Below are positions 29,156 to 39,707 of a stretch of 41,014 bases of DNA, one piece after another. Position 1 is the first letter of the stretch. Each line of letters begins with the position of its first letter. The translations under genes were made by a program, and so were the position numbers. The stretch is from Thermoanaerobaculia bacterium (GTDB taxonomy: Bacteria > Acidobacteriota > Thermoanaerobaculia > Multivoradales > JAHEKO01), in the NCBI GenBank assembly GCA_945787635.1, contig CALZIK010000073.1, positions 1 through 41,014 of the forward strand, read 5' to 3'. The notes beneath the pieces are model-generated. The model saw nothing but the letters and a program-made list of their open reading frames with translations. It searched no databases and was not told the DNA's origin.

Positions 29156-31186
29156 ATGACACCAAAGATCCAAGATCGAGATCTGACGATCCTTCTGATC
29201 GAGGACACTCCCGAGGATGCCGAGCGGGTCGAGACCTGCTTGAGCAACGGGCTGTCCAGAGGCTTCCTGGTTGATCGGACCCAGACCCTGAAAGCCTCGC
29301 TGTCCAACCTGGAGCGCTTCGACTATGACGTCGCCCTGGTGGATCTGTCGCTCCCCGACTGTGCCGGCCTGGCGATCGTGGAAGCCGTGCTCGAGGTGTC
29401 TCCCGAACTGCCGCTGATCGTTCTCACCAGCCTCGACGACGAGGATCTGGCGCTTCAGTGCATCGAAGCCGGCGCCCAGGACTATGTGATCAAGGGAGAC
29501 TGTGGAATCGAAGTCCTGGTCCGGTCTCTTCACTTCGCGATGCAGCGAAAGAACGCTCAGGAGGCTCTGCGCCAGAGCGAATTGAGATACCGATACCTCT
29601 TCGAGCAGAGCCTCGCCGGAGTCTATGTGACCGACCGCGTCGGCAGAGTGCTCGACTGCAATGGTGCCTTCGCCGAGACTCTGGGTGCTCGATCTCGGCG
29701 CGAGATCCTCGAGTTGCCGGCCAGGGACCTCTACTTCGATGCGGAGCAGGCCGCCCGACTGCGGCAAGCGCTCAGCGACGAAGGCGAGTTGCGCAACGAA
29801 GAGATCCAATTGCGGCGTGTTGACGGCGAGCCCGTACGGGTCCTGGCGAACATCGCTTTGATCGATGAAAAGGAAGGTCATGGGTCGGTCGTGCAAGGTA
29901 CGGTTCTCGACATCACCAAGCAACGTCGGTGGGAGCAGCGGATCCACAAGGCGCGACAGATGGAGGCGATCGGCCGGTTGGCCGGGGGCGTGGCTCATGA
30001 CTTCAACAACATCCTGACCTCGATCATCGGATACGCGGAGCTCAGTCTCGACGACACCGAATCCGGTAGCGGTCTGCACGGGAACCTCCTGGAGATTCAA
30101 GAAGCCGGCCGTCGCGCCGCCGTATTGACCCGGCAGCTTCTGGCCTTCAGCCGCCGACAAGTGCTGCGACCCAGCCGGCTCGATCTCAACGAGGTGGTGC
30201 GCGAGTTCGAGGGATTGATCAAGAGCTCGGTCGGCGAGGGAGTCGAGTTGGTATTGAGTCTCGACCCGGAGCTGAACGAAGTGGTGGCGGACCGGGGGCA
30301 ACTAGAGATGGTCCTGATGGATCTCGCGCTCAACTCTCGAGACGCCATGCCGGCAGGCGGCAGCCTGACGATCCTGACCGCGAATGTCGATCTCGACGCG
30401 ATCTTCGCCCACGAACATGCCGGCTCCAGTGTCGGCCCTCACGTGATGCTTTCGGTCGCGGATACCGGCTGTGGCATGGACGAGGACACCCGCAAGAATA
30501 TCTTTGAGCCGTTCTTTACAACCCAGAAGGCGAGTCGATCCGGTCTCGGTCTGGCGGCGGTCTACGGCGTCGTCAAGCAGAGCGGCGGTTACGTGCAGGT
30601 CGATAGCGAGGTCGGTGTAGGTTCGTCGTTTGACGTCTACCTGCCGAGAGCTGTCGGAGTCGGCACGGCGGCGACCGATGAGAGCGTATGTTCCGGCGCG
30701 GTCCCGGACGGTCGAAAGATTCTCGTCGCCGAAGACGACCGCGGTTTGCGGACGATGGCCGAGAAGGTTCTTTCGAGCCAGGGCTACGAGGTACTGACCG
30801 CGAGTGGCCCGGCGGAGGCACTGGCGATTAGGGAAGAGTCTCGCGAGTGCTTCGACCTGCTGATTACCGACCTGGTCATGCCGGGGATGAGCGGCCTGGA
30901 GTTGGCCAAGCGGCTGACTGAGCGCGATCCGGGGCTGCGAGTGCTGCTCATGTCGGGGTATCCGCGCGACCGACTCCTCGAAGAGGACCCCTTTGCCGCC
31001 CGGGCGGCCTTCATTGGCAAGCCGTTCAAACCCAGCGACCTCAGCAAGGAGGTCCGAATGGTGCTCGAGGTCGATCCGAGAGGCTCGAGCGCCTCGACTT
31101 GCAGGCTCGGCGGCCACGACATCGGCGAGCTCATTCCCCTGCCGGCGCTCGCGGCGGAGCAAGCCGTTGGGACGGGCGGCTCCTAG
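29156..31186 (+). CDS. Hybrid histidine kinase, REC-PAS-HisKA-HATPase-REC
   Basis: 676-residue cytosolic kinase with no membrane segments. Order: receiver at about 10-130 (Asp17, phosphoacceptor Asp63, Lys113 in VIKG), PAS at about 140-265, dimerisation helix with HDFNN and His281, ATPase at about 385-500 (N box NSRDAMP, G1 DTGCGMD, F box FEPFFTT, G2 GLGLAAVYG), and a C-terminal receiver at about 515-640 with Asp572 and Lys in FIGKPF. The N-terminal receiver suggests it takes input from another kinase; the PAS may sense a small ligand or redox state. GTGGAG lies 6-7 bases before the ATG. It opens a five-gene signalling run. The 264 bases after FabI hold no convincing gene; a possible -35 there has no good -10. 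Confidence 0.93.
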
Positions 31187-31339: not shown

Positions 31340-32395
31340 ATGTCCGCATTGAGGCTCGTCGATCCCGCGCCGGCAGGAGAGCGGCACCTCTGGAGAGCTA
31401 CCTCTCCGGAGCCCGACGATCAGCTGGAATACCTGATGACTACCACTCCCCGAGCCGCCGGGGAGGGGGTGATTCTGGTCATCGACGACTCCCTCGTCGC
31501 CCGAAGGTACCTCGAGTCGGTCCTGGTCAAGAGCGAAGTCTGCACCAAGGTCTACCTGGCGGACAGTGTAAAGAGAGGTTTTCAGGTGTTGCAGGCTCGG
31601 GAGATCGACCTCGTGCTTTGCGATCTCAACATGCCGGACATCAATGGGATCGAGTTCCTGCATTTGATGACCGCGGAGCATGGGGACGATCTGATTCCCG
31701 TGATCATGCTCACCGGCGAGGTCAGCGTCGAGGCGAAGGTGGAATGCCTGGAGTCGGGAGCCTCGGATTACCTGGTCAAACCCTTCGCGGAGGCGGAGCT
31801 GATCGCCCGGACCAGGGTTCATCTCCAGCTCAAGGCGCTTCAGGACGAGCTTCGCATCCGCAACCAGCAGCTCAAGCAGATCGCGTGTCTGGACTCGTTG
31901 ACCGGCATCTGCAATCGGCACTATTTCCTGCAGAGACTGGAGCACGAGCTCAACCGCGCCGGGCGTCGGCAGCTTCCGCTCAGTGTAGGCATGATCGATA
32001 TCGATCATTTCAAGAAGATCAACGATCAACATGGACACGTCTGTGGCGATCGCGCGCTGATTCAAACGGCCAGTCTGCTCAAGGCGGGCCTGCGCGACTA
32101 CGACCTGCTGGGTCGATACGGTGGCGAGGAGTTTGTTGCGGTCTTCACCGAAGCCGAGTCCGCCGTCGCCGTGGAGATCGCTGAGCGGTGCAGAATGCAG
32201 GTCGCCGCCAATCCGATGCAGATCGGCGACGCCCGGCTCGAGATCACGGTGAGCATCGGCGTGGCTTCGACCTCGGATCCCAGACCCGCCATGCTGCCGA
32301 AGCTCATTGCGAGCGCCGATGAGGCGCTCTATCTGGCCAAGAATCGCGGTCGCAACCGGGTTGTCTCGGCGAAGGCGTTGACATGGCCAGATTGA
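31340..32395 (+). CDS. Response regulator diguanylate cyclase, REC-GGDEF
   Basis: 351-residue protein that makes cyclic di-GMP from GTP when its receiver is phosphorylated. The N-terminal ~40 residues are flexible (a later Met near residue 33 is an alternative start). The receiver covers about 44-165 with Asp49/Asp50, phosphoacceptor Asp95 and Lys in YLVKPF. The GGDEF domain covers about 185-345, with the active-site motif GGEEF at 261-265 and an intact inhibitory I-site RDYD at 252-255, exactly five residues earlier, so product feedback inhibition is expected. Catalytic metal residues in DIDHFKKINDQHGH are present. It overlaps the following kinase gene by 13 bases, implying coupled expression with its likely partner. 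A small GCAACA-TACG-TGTTGC hairpin lies upstream at 31249-31264. Confidence 0.94.
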   Translation: MSALRLVDPAPAGERHLWRATSPEPDDQLEYLMTTTPRAAGEGVILVIDDSLVARRYLESVLVKSEVCTKVYLADSVKRGFQVLQAREIDLVLCDLNMPDINGIEFLHLMTAEHGDDLIPVIMLTGEVSVEAKVECLESGASDYLVKPFAEAELIARTRVHLQLKALQDELRIRNQQLKQIACLDSLTGICNRHYFLQRLEHELNRAGRRQLPLSVGMIDIDHFKKINDQHGHVCGDRALIQTASLLKAGLRDYDLLGRYGGEEFVAVFTEAESAVAVEIAERCRMQVAANPMQIGDARLEITVSIGVASTSDPRPAMLPKLIASADEALYLAKNRGRNRVVSAKALTWPD

Positions 32396-33999
32396 AGGTC
32401 GCGCTCGCAGGGCAACCCTTCGAGAACCCACCGTCCCACCGCCCAGGCGATCAGATCGATCTTCTGACGGATCAGCTCGAGACGGGAGACGAGAGCTTTC
32501 GAGCGCTCTTTGAGAGCGCTCCCGACGCGATCTTCGTGGAGAACATGAGCGGCGAAGTGCTCGATGTCAACCCGGCGGCGTGCCGGCTACATGGAATGGG
32601 TCGAGAGGAGTTGATCGGCCTGAATGTTACCGCTCTGGTGCCTCCCGATGCCAGGGCGGAGGCCGCCGCAAGCTTCGAGGCGGCCGCAGCCGGCCAGATC
32701 GTGCGGGTCGAGGCTCACAGTCTTACCAAGGACGGCAGGTCGGTTCCCGTCAGTGTGAGCGCCAGCCGGATCTACTATCGGGGGCAGCCCGCCCTGCTGG
32801 TTCACGTCAGAGACATGACCGACCAACGTCTGCTCGAGGACCAGCTAAGGCAATCACAGAAAATGGAAGCCATCGGACGGCTCGCAGGTGGCGTCGCCCA
32901 CGACTTCAACAACCTCTTGACCGCGATCCTGGGCTACACGGAGCTGAGCGCGTCGGCCGTGGGTGAAGAGCACGAGATCTACAAGGACCTCACGGAAGTG
33001 AGGAAGGCGGGCGAACAGGCCGCTAGCCTGACCCGGCAGCTACTCGCCTTTAGTCGTCAGCAGGTGCTCGAACCCAAGGTGAAAGACCTCAACGAGATCG
33101 TTATCGACGTGGAGAACATCTGCCGGCGTACGATTGGCGAAGACATCAGGCTCGTCACCCGCCTGGAGAAGGATCTCAAGCCAGTCAAGATCGACGAAGG
33201 TCAGTTGCAGCAGGTGATCTTGAATCTGGTGGTGAATTCGCGAGATGCCATGCCGGAGGGTGGCGAGATCGCGATCGAGACTGGCACAATTCTCGTCGAC
33301 GAGCATTTTCCGTCACAAGGGGTTCGAATCGAGGCGGGCGAGTATGTCTCGTTCTCGCTCAGGGATACCGGCTGCGGAATGACGTCGGAGATCAAGCAAC
33401 AGGTCTTCGACCCGTTCTTCACGACCAAGGATCCCGAAAAGGGGACCGGTCTCGGGCTTTCGACCGTTTATGGAATCGTCAAGCAAAGTGGCGGCTACAT
33501 CTTCATCGAAAGCCAGCCCGATGCGGGAACCACGATTCGGATTCTGCTGCCGCCGACCGAGGCAGACCCGCAGGTATCGGTCTCTTCCCCGGCTGTCTCG
33601 GAAGAGTCGGCGGGCAGCAAGACCATCCTCTTGACGGAGGACAATAAGGTCGTCCGTGAGCTTTCGACCCAGGTTCTCGAGGAGATGGGCTATCGAGTGC
33701 TTGCCGCGGAGACTGCGGAAGAAGGCCTGCGAATCAACCAGGCGTTCCAGGAGGAGATCGATCTCCTGGTGACCGATCTCGTGCTGACAGGAATGGACGG
33801 CCTGACGATGACGCGCGAGTTGCTGACGACCAGCCCGGGGACCAGGGTGCTGTTGATGTCCGGGCACACCCGACGGGCTCGCTTCGATCCCGAGCCCTTG
33901 CTGGAAGGCGTGGCCTTTCTCCAGAAGCCTTTTACGCCGGCCGGGCTCAAGAGCGCTGTCATCTCTGCCCTCCGGAAACCGGCTCCTTCCCTTCGCTGA
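32383..33999 (+). CDS. Hybrid histidine kinase, PAS-HisKA-HATPase-REC
   Basis: 538-residue cytosolic kinase. Order: PAS at about 35-150 ([16 protein letters not shown] start), dimerisation helix with HDFNN and His173, ATPase at about 275-395 ([32 protein letters not shown]), and receiver at about 412-530 with Asp465 and Lys in FLQKPF. It resembles the kinase at 29156-31186 but lacks the N-terminal receiver, so the pair may come from an old duplication with domain gain or loss. Its start lies 13 bases inside the end of the GGDEF gene. The likely targets are the receivers encoded on both sides. No transmembrane segment, so the signal is intracellular. Confidence 0.93.
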
Positions 34000-34109: not shown

Positions 34110-34661
34110 ATGTTACAGGTGAGCGCTCCGCTTGATCTCTCAGCAAGCTCTCGACGTGGCGGAGCGGCAAAGACCCTCTTTGGTAGATCGCGAGGCATTC
34201 GGTTCTCGAGTGCCTCGGAGTTTTTTTCCGGGACCGCGGAAGTTGGGAGGTGGCAACTGTCGGGTGGTGACGCGGAGGGGGGCTCGCACCGCAACGTGCG
34301 AACAGTGCTCGTGGTCGAGGACAACAGTGGTCTTCGCATTCTGGTGGTGAAGGCTCTCGAGGCCCGGGGCTACCGGGTTCTGAGCTGCGACGCATCAGAG
34401 CTCGCGGTTCGCCTATTCGACGAAGAACCAGTCGATCTGCTGCTGACCGATGTCGTGATGCCGGGCGTCGGCGGCGTGGCCCTGGCCAGAAGGCTGAGGG
34501 CGCGCAAGCCGTCGCTCAAGGTGCTTCTGATGTCGGGTCACGACAAGCGGGAGATCGAAGATCCCGAGGTACTTGGCGGCGAAGTGACGTTTCTCAGCAA
34601 ACCCTTCGGTGTTGCGGACCTGGTTCGAACAGTGGAAAAATCGCTACAGGAGAACTCTTGA
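34110..34661 (+). CDS. Single-domain response regulator with N-terminal extension
   Basis: 183-residue protein with one receiver at about residues 64-180: acidic pair in VVEDN, phosphoacceptor Asp114 in LLLTDVVMPG and Lys in FLSKPF. No output domain follows, as in phosphate-shuttling or sink regulators. The first ~60 residues are Ser/Arg/Gly-rich and low-complexity; the ATG at 34110 has a GGGGGT run 8-13 bases upstream, but a GTG at 34296, immediately before the domain, is an alternative start. Its stop overlaps the TTG start of the REC-EAL gene by 4 bases. A shared phosphorelay with the two kinases upstream is likely. Confidence 0.85.
   Translation: MLQVSAPLDLSASSRRGGAAKTLFGRSRGIRFSSASEFFSGTAEVGRWQLSGGDAEGGSHRNVRTVLVVEDNSGLRILVVKALEARGYRVLSCDASELAVRLFDEEPVDLLLTDVVMPGVGGVALARRLRARKPSLKVLLMSGHDKREIEDPEVLGGEVTFLSKPFGVADLVRTVEKSLQENS
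34648..34652 (+). promoter_or_regulatory. Ribosome binding site for the TTG start at 34658
   Basis: AGGAG, 5 bases before TTG at 34658, within the end of the upstream receiver gene (TTGA overlap). It supports a TTG start for the REC-EAL protein. Confidence 0.6.
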
Positions 34662-36079
34662 GAGAGGTCACGCCAGTCAAACGGGTTCTAATTCTCGACG
34701 ATGATCCCGTGGTCCTGCGGACCCTGGTCGACTACCTGGCGTCACCCAGAGTGCACCTGCTGCTTTGCTCGGAGATCGAGGCGGCGGAGTGTGTTCTGGA
34801 TCGCCAGAGCTTCGACGTGCTGATCTGCGATCTGGAGGTTTCGCGCCTTGGAGGGCTCGAAGGATTCCGGCTCGTTCGGCACGCTCTGGCGCACTTTCCG
34901 GATCTCGAGGTCATCGTCTTCAGCGGAAAGCTCGACGACGAAGTGCGCCGGCTTGGCCGAAGTCTGGGCGCTACCGAGCTCCTCGAGAAGCCGGCCGAGA
35001 TGCACCGCCTGCGCGAGTTGCTCGGTGGCGAGGTCCGAAGCTCTCAGGAGGGCCGGCCGGGCCGGAGGGTCCGTGGGGAGGTGACCCGGGTGGAGCGCCT
35101 GGAAGAGCTGCTGGGGAACCGCAGCATCTCGGCGCTCTTGCAGCCGATCGTCCGCCTCGACAAGACACAAGAGAGCGGAGGGTTGTATGTCGAGGGGCTG
35201 GCCAGGGGTCCTCTGGGCTCGCCTCTCAGGAATCCCGAGCTTCTTCTGGCGTATGCATCGAAAAAGGACCTGCTGTTCGAGACCGAGCTTCAGTGCATCT
35301 CTGCGGTGCTGGGTGAATCCCGCCATCTTTCGGGGCTACGCAAGCTCTTCATCAACGTGCATCCACGCTCCTTGTCGGCTCCCGGGTTCGCATCCGTTCT
35401 GGAAAATCTAGTTCGGCAGAACGGCTACGAGAACAGCGATGTCGTGCTTGAGCTGACCGAGCAGCAGTCGATCCTGAACGCCACCGCCTTCGCCGCGACT
35501 CTCGACGACTTTCGGATGCGCGGTTTCGGTCTGGCGCTCGATGACTACGGTAGCGGCTTTGCGAATCTCCATCTCGTTCAGCAGTTGCGGCCGGACTATC
35601 TCAAGATCGATGGATTCTTCTGTCGCGGCATCGAGAACGACGAGAACAAGAGGACGATTGTCGAGGCGACGGTTGCGATGGCCCACCGGCTTGGCATCTC
35701 GACGATTATGGAATGTGTCGAGACCGCCGCGGCGCTCGAGGTCTTGCGGGACCTCGGCGCCAGGTTCGCTCAGGGATACTTCTTTTCGGAGCCGATCGGC
35801 GGCCGAGAGCTCGCAGCGGCGTTCCGGCCGCGGCTGCCTGAGCTTCGGGACGAGCAGGCTCGCAGCCCGTCGCCTTCTTCGACGGTCGTCACTCCTTGGA
35901 CGGCCGGGGACATCGAGCACGAGCTCTCCAATCTTCTGACCGCGATCGCGCTGACGGCGGCACAGGGACTGAAGAGGCTCGACACTGGCGATCCGCTGCG
36001 CAAAGATCTCGAAGCGATTCTCTCGGCAAGTGAGCAGGCCATTTCCTTGAAGTGGCCCGAGGTAGGGACTTTGGACTAG
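34658..36079 (+). CDS. REC-EAL cyclic di-GMP phosphodiesterase with C-terminal phosphoacceptor-like helix
   Basis: 473-residue regulator. Receiver at about 7-125 with Asp14/Asp15/Asp16 and phosphoacceptor Asp58. EAL domain at about 150-395. Its motif reads EGL (Glu179) in place of EAL, but the other metal and catalytic residues are visible: Asn in FINVHP, Glu in LELTEQ, the Asp pair in ALDDYGSG, Lys in YLKIDG, Glu in MECVET and Gln in QGYFFSEP. Breakdown of c-di-GMP to pGpG is therefore likely. Residues about 413-463 repeat the look of a kinase dimerisation helix (DIEHELSNLLTAI, His421, then a helix with RKDLEAILSASEQA), yet no ATPase domain follows. It may dimerise with, or be phosphorylated by, the neighbouring kinases. 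The start is TTG, overlapping the previous gene. Confidence 0.9.
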   Translation: MREVTPVKRVLILDDDPVVLRTLVDYLASPRVHLLLCSEIEAAECVLDRQSFDVLICDLEVSRLGGLEGFRLVRHALAHFPDLEVIVFSGKLDDEVRRLGRSLGATELLEKPAEMHRLRELLGGEVRSSQEGRPGRRVRGEVTRVERLEELLGNRSISALLQPIVRLDKTQESGGLYVEGLARGPLGSPLRNPELLLAYASKKDLLFETELQCISAVLGESRHLSGLRKLFINVHPRSLSAPGFASVLENLVRQNGYENSDVVLELTEQQSILNATAFAATLDDFRMRGFGLALDDYGSGFANLHLVQQLRPDYLKIDGFFCRGIENDENKRTIVEATVAMAHRLGISTIMECVETAAALEVLRDLGARFAQGYFFSEPIGGRELAAAFRPRLPELRDEQARSPSPSSTVVTPWTAGDIEHELSNLLTAIALTAAQGLKRLDTGDPLRKDLEAILSASEQAISLKWPEVGTLD

Positions 36080-36177
36080 GGCCCTGCGGCGGTCACGCCG
36101 AGAATTTTGAGGCGCCCGGCGGGATGCCCGCCGCTCGAACGCAGGGGAACTTCCCGCATGGGGCACCAGCCGCAGGC

Positions 36178-36203
36178 GCCAGGGTTCTTCAGCAAGCTCC
36201 TAG
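36178..36203. repeat. Solo end of the MITE-like element
   Basis: A 26-base sequence ending in TTCAGCAAGCTCCTAG is identical to the right end of the element at 38217-38410. No matching opposite end is clear on the other side. The CTAG supplies the stop codon of the minus-strand metalloprotease gene. The rest of 36080-36177 holds a CGGCGGG-AT-CCCGCCG-like hairpin and no gene. Confidence 0.75.
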
Positions 36204-37150
36204 AGGCCCGGGCGGAAGGTCGCGACCATGTCCCGCATCCGCTCGGCCTGTCCCGGCGTGAACGTGTTCATGCACGAGTCGTCGCTGTAGTTCATGAAGT
36301 TGCGCACCGGGTCGCTTCCGGGCGCCGAGCACGTATCGCGCGGGAGGGGGCACCCGAAGGCGGGAACCTGTTCGGCCGGAGTATCGGAGACCTCGTCGCC
36401 GCCGGAACAGCCACCCTCGAAGGTGTGAAGCAGCCCCAGGTAGTGTCCGACCTCGTGAGTGAGAGTGTCGCCCAGATTGTATGGCGCCGCCGAGCCTTTC
36501 GGCAGGGTCGAATAGCGCACCACGACACCGTGCATCGAACTGCTGTCCTCGAAGTCCCATGGATAGTAGGACCAGCCGAGAACGTCAGCCGGCATGCAAG
36601 TGTAGACGTTGAGGGTGCTGACGGGGTCCACGGCATGCCGCTTCTTGAAGCCCCGCTCGACGTCGACGTCATTGCAGCCCGTGGCAAACTCGTCATCCAC
36701 GAGGCGGCGTATGGAGCGAAGCTCGAACTGGAAGCCGCTTCCGGCGTAAGCGCGGTTCAAGGCGCGAACTTGGCGCTTGACGTGCTTTCGCTTGACGTCG
36801 GCGGCACCATCGTTCGAACGCGCAACATGAAACACCACGGGAATGATCTTGTCTCCATAGCGGTGCGAGCGTCCCCAGGCGTTTACGAAGTCGCCGGCGG
36901 CGGCGTCGATCATCTTGCGCTCGAGCTGTCCGACCGACCGTGTGGCGCACCTGACTCCGGAAAGCGTGTTGCCGTTCTCAGAGGTGTAGTTGATGTTGCG
37001 AGGGAGCTCGCGCCGGTCGAAGTCTCTTGGAAACTCCTGAAGAAAGCTGGCGATCTCACCGGTTTGAGCTTCGGCGCCGGGCGATCCGAGACCGATCAGG
37101 ATCATGGTCGCGAGTACCGTCGAGCTGGCGATCATTCGGGATGTGGTCAT
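36200..37150 (-). CDS. Secreted pappalysin/cytophagalysin-type zinc metalloprotease (M43-like)
   Basis: 316-residue exported zinc protease. The ATG at 37150 has AAAGGAG 7 bases upstream and opens a signal peptide (SSTVLATMILIGLGS, cleavage near AEAQ, residue 29). The zinc site is HEVGHYLGLLH: His232, His236 and His242 with catalytic Glu233. The Met-turn is NFMNYSDDSC with Met286, as in M43 metzincins. Cysteines at 159, 185, 248, 267, 274 and 293 may form disulfides. An N-terminal propeptide region up to about residue 100 is likely removed. The stop codon lies in a repeat end. It separates the signalling genes and is transcribed against them. Confidence 0.93.
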   Translation of the reverse strand: MTTSRMIASSTVLATMILIGLGSPGAEAQTGEIASFLQEFPRDFDRRELPRNINYTSENGNTLSGVRCATRSVGQLERKMIDAAAGDFVNAWGRSHRYGDKIIPVVFHVARSNDGAADVKRKHVKRQVRALNRAYAGSGFQFELRSIRRLVDDEFATGCNDVDVERGFKKRHAVDPVSTLNVYTCMPADVLGWSYYPWDFEDSSSMHGVVVRYSTLPKGSAAPYNLGDTLTHEVGHYLGLLHTFEGGCSGGDEVSDTPAEQVPAFGCPLPRDTCSAPGSDPVRNFMNYSDDSCMNTFTPGQAERMRDMVATFRPGL

Positions 37151-37276
37151 GGTTGCGCTCCTTTTTTTCGGAAGCTTTGATTCGGTTCGCATGTGACACG
37201 ACCAAAGTAACCAAATGCGGGCTCTGTCGGAATCAGAGGTTCTTGGTTCGAGTTGACGGCAACTCGCGCCTGACTC

Positions 37277-37295
37277 CGTAGGTCGGTCACCTACG
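37277..37295. promoter_or_regulatory. Small inverted repeat in a divergent promoter region
   Basis: CGTAGGT, 5 bases, ACCTACG forms a perfect 7-bp inverted repeat in the 290-base gap 37151-37440 between the divergent metalloprotease and the unknown gene at 37441. It could be an operator; no -10/-35 pair in the gap is convincing. Confidence 0.25.
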
Positions 37296-37440
37296 CGGCG
37301 TCGGAGGATCGGCTTTCCCACTGTCCGAGCGCCAGCCCTAGAGCCTCGACATCGTTGTTTGGCCTACAACCGGTTGGGAGGTCTTCCGGTGGTCGCGGAG
37401 CCCGAGGTCCTGGATGATTGAGTGGAAGGGAGCCGTAGGA

Positions 37441-39263: not shown

Positions 39264-39707
39264 ATGAACACTCCACCGAGACAGCCTAAGCCCTCTTCTG
39301 GCGATTCGAGCCAGGCTACGCCCTTCGTCGGGTTCGATGACATGAAGTCCCGTTATCGCGTCTCTGGCGTGGAGATGCGTTTGGGTGCATTCGACGGTGC
39401 GAAAGCGGTCAACATAGGCATCGGCGGCGTCGCGGTCGAGACCCAGAAGTACCTAGAGGTCGGCAAGACCTACCCGCTGCGATTCAGGCGCCCGGCGGGC
39501 TCGCTGCGCCTGACCGGCACGGTGATTTGGAGTCAGCTCACGAGGACCGTGACGGTCAAGGAGCGCGAGGTGCTGCCCGTTTATCGAGCCGGCCTCGAGT
39601 TCGCCAGAATGTCGGTCGCGCAGAAACGGGAGCTCGAGGAGTTCATCGCCGAAGCGCTCGACCGGGCCGAGCAGGTCCACAGCGTGGCGGGCGCGGCAAT
39701 CGCCTGA
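39264..39707 (+). CDS. PilZ-domain protein, likely cyclic di-GMP receptor
   Basis: 147-residue cytosolic protein with a PilZ domain at about 25-135. Seen: an Arg-containing N-terminal loop (KSRYRV, Arg30 and Arg32) and NIGIGGVAV at 50-58, which corresponds to the (D/N)xSxxG motif with Ser replaced by Gly. Strand pattern and ETQKYLEVGKTYPLRF continue as in PilZ proteins. Binding of c-di-GMP is plausible but weakened motifs leave doubt. The closeness of the GGDEF and EAL genes supports a shared pathway. The first 20 residues are disordered-looking. Divergent from the LuxR regulator. The following 244 bases hold no recognised gene. Confidence 0.8.
   Translation: MNTPPRQPKPSSGDSSQATPFVGFDDMKSRYRVSGVEMRLGAFDGAKAVNIGIGGVAVETQKYLEVGKTYPLRFRRPAGSLRLTGTVIWSQLTRTVTVKEREVLPVYRAGLEFARMSVAQKRELEEFIAEALDRAEQVHSVAGAAIA

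Follow-up and report, generated by a model that had tools for sequence, protein, structure and literature searches.

The gene at 34658-36079 of the 41,014-nucleotide stretch of DNA analysed here (the window) encodes a protein that is, as read from its sequence, a receiver-EAL regulator with a C-terminal HisKA-type hairpin, which carries a candidate phospho-accepting histidine (His421) and is followed by no ATPase domain. Over the formation of mixed dimers with the neighbouring kinases, we favour a role for this tail as a receiver-directed phosphotransfer or phosphatase module that would act in trans. The features concerned, all on the forward (+) strand, are as follows.

29156-31186, +: HK1, a receiver-PAS-HisKA-HATPase-receiver hybrid kinase (Pfam)
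31340-32395, +: receiver-GGDEF diguanylate cyclase (Pfam; equal position in the related genome G001)
32383-33999, +: HK2, a PAS-HisKA-HATPase-receiver hybrid kinase, possible phosphate source (Pfam)
34110-34661, +: solo receiver, likely partner of the tail (Pfam; 49% identity to the C-terminal receiver of the kinase HKa)
34658-36079, +: the receiver-EAL-half-DHp protein, 473 residues (open reading frame, Pfam domains)
34685-35020, +: its receiver, residues 10-121 (Pfam Response_reg, 53.1 bits)
35093-35794, +: its EAL phosphodiesterase domain, residues 146-379 (Pfam EAL, 157.5 bits)
35810-35893, +: variable linker, residues 385-412 (window-G001 omega about 0.95; low model confidence)
35894-36055, +: putative orphan HisKA/DHp hairpin, residues 413-466 (HisKA matches, kinase-only profile, AlphaFold, omega about 0.12, tail clade)
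35918-35920, +: codon of His421, the predicted phospho-acceptor in H-E-x-x-N (register with the kinases; invariant in three tails)

The gene starts with a TTG codon, with a Shine-Dalgarno-like aggaga at 34648-34653, and shares four bases (TTGA) with the gene upstream. In an alignment with other receivers, the Asp pair, the phospho-accepting Asp, the Ser and the Lys of its receiver look complete. The EAL catalytic positions are present, by eye, in both the window protein and its G001 orthologue, which are putative phosphodiesterases. The protein ends 10 residues past the second helix of the tail.

The initial annotation had proposed that this EAL protein ends in an orphan HisKA-type segment, which aligns with the phospho-acceptor helices of the kinases and keeps the histidine. 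The Pfam HisKA profile (PF00512) matches residues 417-463 with its positions 7-52 of 66, at 15.6-19.8 bits, which is sub-threshold compared with the gathering score of 26.9; the E value is 0.017 with the whole protein and 8e-4 with the tail scanned alone. Since this match falls below the cut-off, a separate profile was built from 44 DHp domains taken from complete kinases of related genomes, with none of the tails included. With this kinase-only profile, the window protein reaches 35.6 bits, and the tailed relatives reach 31.8 and 41.2 bits. Six relatives without a tail gave less than 1 bit or no match, and of about 4,900 scored shuffles made from each tail, the highest reached 9-11 bits. A profile match was also obtained with the DHp domain of CckA, the donor kinase of ChpT (5idj, E 7e-5). 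His421 aligns with the phospho-accepting His of the kinases and is followed by Glu (E422, +1) and Asn (N425, +4), and this H-E-x-x-N motif is invariant in all three tails. Both the proposed segment and its register are thus borne out, and the profile search of the tail that had been suggested as a check yields a match that is sub-threshold in Pfam and clear with the kinase-only profile. The CheA matches from a phmmer search of the tail against the PDB were discounted, as they extend over the linker and are not in the HisKA register.

That no ATPase domain follows, as had also been stated, agrees with a search of 36000-36400, where no HATPase_c (CA) domain or CA-like remnant was found after the DHp tail in any frame. 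A frameshift masking a CA domain 3' of the gene is ruled out by the same search, and is also countered by the identical ending of the protein in three genomes with differing downstream genes. In the genome itself, every HisKA match above the cut-off (28 of 28) is followed by a HATPase match, and the tail is the only believable orphan HisKA there. Weak orphan HisKA candidates on contigs C193, C45 and C35 read by sequence as cytochrome-like, TPR-like and chemoreceptor-like.

Relatives were searched for in 59 related genomes, in 72 of the order and in a sample of 396 from the phylum. The full protein has few close relatives in these sets, and the tail is found in two, G001 and G008, of the same family of genomes. 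The tailed orthologue in G001 (L040:15526-16929, - strand) has the conserved Lys of its receiver replaced by Tyr (LEYPKD), and its phosphorylation may be altered. It is one of three receiver-EAL paralogues located within about 13-14 kb (contig C13; L040 and L041) and the only one of them with a tail, the other two being intact EAL proteins. Genes for hybrid kinases, for a GGDEF regulator and for a HisKA_3 kinase lie in between these paralogues, in what looks like an expanded c-di-GMP phosphorelay cluster. The tailed gene in G008 (L047:7759-8778, - strand) encodes a protein that is without receiver and has lost several EAL catalytic residues, and has kept the DHp tail, which is also matched by Pfam HisKA (E 0.002). 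With a profile of the three tails, only full kinases were found among the matches examined in the 72 order and 396 phylum genomes, and full-length searches of the same sets gave tailless relatives and no further tail. A protein search of the contigs of the window's own genome gave only distant EAL or receiver proteins.

In a phylogenetic tree, the three tails form one clade (support 99/96) apart from 30 kinase DHp domains. The EAL domains of the tailed proteins group with the G001 paralogues in the EAL-domain tree, while the inner order of the EAL and receiver-EAL trees gives no resolution on a single gain of the tail followed by loss in the paralogues. The length of the tail is conserved across the three species. 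Between the window and G001, omega is about 0.12 for the tail, 0.19 for the EAL domain, 0.33 for the receiver and about 0.95 for the linker, values that are rough because dS is high, near saturation. We conclude that the tail is a genuine DHp hairpin under selection. That two close G001 paralogues and more distant relatives are without tail could suggest a decaying, no longer functional remnant of a kinase once fused to the protein. However, such a remnant is highly improbable in view of the low omega of the tail, the single tail clade, the invariant active-site residues and the length conserved in three species.

For the tail, AlphaFold predicts helix 1 at residues 416-440 and helix 2 at 446-463 with pLDDT of 91-96, based on an alignment of only the tail and the two window kinases, and with low confidence for the linker ahead of the helices. 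The whole-protein model, made without alignment, is poor (pLDDT 43) and agrees on helices at 416-440 and 446-465. Foldseek and VIA-align match the tail to kinase DHp and ChpT chains with values that are usual for any helical hairpin, which are therefore excluded from the evidence. The helical hairpin and HisKA match on which the initial annotation had staked its reading are thus both found, and so is the conservation of His421, which is kept in the tailed relatives; the paralogues without the His are without the whole tail.

Compared with the kinases, the tail is cut short on both sides: helix 1 starts about five residues ahead of the His, so that most of the pre-His segment (11 residues in the kinases) is absent, and helix 2 is without its last part, which in the kinases runs on to the ATPase domain. 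What is retained is the lower, receiver-docking half of a DHp domain, and the upper half, beside the ATPase domain, is missing. Structural work on CckA, ChpT and CtrA locates the docked receivers at the lower half of the bundle (PMC9981736). A hairpin with hydrophobic faces, such as the one predicted here, might also be a dimerisation clamp for the EAL enzyme only, with no chemical role for the histidine, and archaeal receiver-HisKA proteins without HATPase are expected to dimerise, according to Galperin and colleagues (PMC5847659). However, all three tails, even that of G008 with its decayed EAL site, keep His, Glu+1 and Asn+4 unchanged, which belong to the active site and not to the packing, and in G001 the paralogues have an intact EAL protein and no tail. 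A mere clamp seems quite unlikely.

The order of genes common to the window and G001 runs from the GGDEF gene through HK2 or HKc to HKa or the solo receiver, and HK2 orthologues adjoin the tailed genes in both G001 and G008. The best match of the solo receiver is the C-terminal receiver of HKa in G001 (49% over 119 residues, with the ends flush). Because of this match and the matching gene order, the solo receiver looks like an HKa remnant, that is, it is apparently the relic of a hybrid kinase that is intact in G001. Its 60 N-terminal residues are without a recognised domain. The tailed gene overlaps the end of the HKa gene in G001 and that of the solo-receiver gene in the window, and in G008 it begins 16 bases past a hybrid kinase. 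In three of three genomes, then, the gene directly upstream of the tailed gene ends in a receiver, and the constant partner is therefore the upstream-encoded receiver.

Two other genes were noted nearby. A PilZ-domain protein (39264-39707, +) is a possible c-di-GMP reader near the cluster. A predicted secreted zinc metalloprotease-like protein (HEVGHYLGL) is encoded at 36200-37321 (-) in the window and at L040:9169-10257 (+) in G001, and its gene adjoins EAL genes in each of the two, in convergent orientation.

Could the tail instead act on the kinases themselves? The initial annotation had suggested that it could dock on nearby kinases, mix into dimers with them or be phosphorylated by them. 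In such mixed four-helix bundles, for which the RetS-GacS interaction provides a comparison, His421 would be phosphorylated by the ATPase domain of the kinase, or the kinase dimer would be spoiled. The DHp subtype of the tail is that of the neighbouring hybrid kinases, the tailed gene always lies beside a hybrid kinase or its relic, and the tails keep the Glu at His+1 that is needed for HisKA kinase activity (PMC3510030). However, the upper half of the bundle, namely the pre-His segment and the end of helix 2, is absent, the kinase part of the directly upstream kinase is apparently gone in the window, where the tail is still present, and L+11 and Q+15 of the tails differ from the cluster kinases. 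The suggestion is possible, but with the upper half missing and the receiver-docking lower half conserved it is not the best-supported one, and we consider mixed bundles unlikely.

The receiver contacts of CckA correspond to His+4, +8, +11, +15, +28 and +32 (PMC9981736). The tails carry N, A/A/G, L and Q at His+4, +8, +11 and +15. Of these residues, L+11, which CckA shares, and Q+15 do not vary among the three tails and do not occur in the five kinases of the three clusters. By a hand estimate, the chance that two of four tail-specific residues fall on six contact columns of 40 is about 0.1. The tail-specific residues at contact columns would point to receiver docking, which is only suggestive, and the argument is weak because only three tails are known. 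The Lys at +28 of the window tail is a misfit with the proposed acidic patch. At the column of CckA R588, the directly upstream receivers have Lys or Arg, and the own receivers of the tailed proteins have Asp or Glu. This column also bears on the possibility that phosphate is passed within one protein, between His421 and its own receiver, as could be imagined because the window and G001 proteins have both domains on a single chain and because the window receiver looks complete. However, the G008 protein is without receiver, the G001 receiver has Tyr for the conserved Lys, and both own receivers are acidic where that of CckA has Arg, and such transfer is very unlikely. Because G008 has lost the receiver and G001 the conserved Lys, a partner in trans is likelier than the own receiver.

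The tail most likely docks the upstream receiver in trans and either exchanges phosphate with it or removes its phosphate, a mechanism to which we give about even odds. In this mechanism, the EAL enzyme would dimerise, and its two tails would pair into a short four-helix bundle that exposes His421 and would dock the receiver whose gene lies directly upstream, that of the hybrid kinase in the relatives and, as we infer, the solo receiver (34110-34661) in the window. The docked tail would then either swap phosphate with the receiver in a His step, as ChpT and Spo0B do, or hydrolyse the receiver phosphate via the Asn at His+4, as DHp domains do, and the hybrid-kinase relay and the c-di-GMP phosphodiesterase would be physically joined. 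The G008 protein, in which the tail persists although the receiver is gone and several catalytic positions of EAL have been lost, supports this receiver-directed module. In HisKA proteins, phosphatase activity depends on the Thr or Asn at His+4 and kinase activity on the acidic residue at His+1, and in CrdS the +1 Glu is required for the kinase but dispensable for the phosphatase activity (PMC3510030). The Glu+1 kept in the tails counts against the favoured reading, for it would suit phosphorylation by a kinase. Since Glu+1 and Asn+4 are both conserved, transfer, phosphatase action and phosphorylation by a kinase are all compatible with the tail.

We also put forward, tentatively, the possibility of a c-di-GMP phosphodiesterase with its own phosphohistidine relay station, whose half DHp takes or strips the phosphate of the adjacent hybrid-kinase receiver and so sets the enzyme or the relay. 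If true, one protein would bridge a phosphorelay and c-di-GMP breakdown, with a natural DHp smaller than those of the known phosphotransferases. Among receiver-EAL regulators such as RocR, the receiver is likewise followed by EAL and the genes lie beside hybrid kinases. To our knowledge, no DHp tail has been described in this class. In the part of the literature searched, no report of an EAL enzyme bearing an orphan DHp/HisKA was found.

The link to the relay had initially been called unfamiliar. HisKA without HATPase is itself already known from archaea (PMC5847659), DHp-type phosphotransferases such as ChpT and Spo0B are known as well, and the new part is the EAL fusion. For the archaeal HisKA proteins without HATPase, some of them fused to receivers, roles as phospho-acceptor, in transfer or as phosphatase have been proposed; they appear as 'possible incomplete histidine kinase' in P2CS (PMC5847659). 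HisKA proteins without the ATPase domain have been listed as incomplete or misannotated kinases, with their function reported as unstudied (PMC5847659). The window protein provides a small, conserved and compact case of an orphan DHp tied to a c-di-GMP enzyme and a neighbouring receiver, making the role of such a domain directly testable with purified proteins, and its G008 relative is a natural version in which little besides the tail looks functional.

The archaeal 'HisKA, no HATPase' and REC-(PAS/GAF)-HisKA regulators, for example AF_1472, likewise combine a receiver with a C-terminal HisKA-type domain that has a conserved His and no HATPase (PMC5847659). However, the latter have PAS/GAF where the window protein has EAL, archaea being without EAL response regulators, and a reduction to the receiver-docking half is reported here for the window tail and not for the archaeal proteins. 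ChpT and Spo0B are pseudo-kinases whose DHp domains serve as phosphotransferases (PMC9981736). Like the window tail, they have a DHp hairpin with a His and no working ATPase, theirs acting on receivers. However, their bundle is longer, a degenerate CA-like domain is still present in them and no output enzyme is attached, whereas the window tail is without CA remnant and fused to EAL; phosphate transfer is proven for them, and the window tail is known from sequence and model. The isolated DHp domain of EnvZ, with H-E/D-x-x-T/N, is reported to act without CA as a phosphatase on the phosphorylated receiver (Zhu et al., 2000, cited in PMC3510030). That domain is a laboratory fragment comprising the full hairpin, whereas the window tail is natural, shorter and borne by an enzyme.
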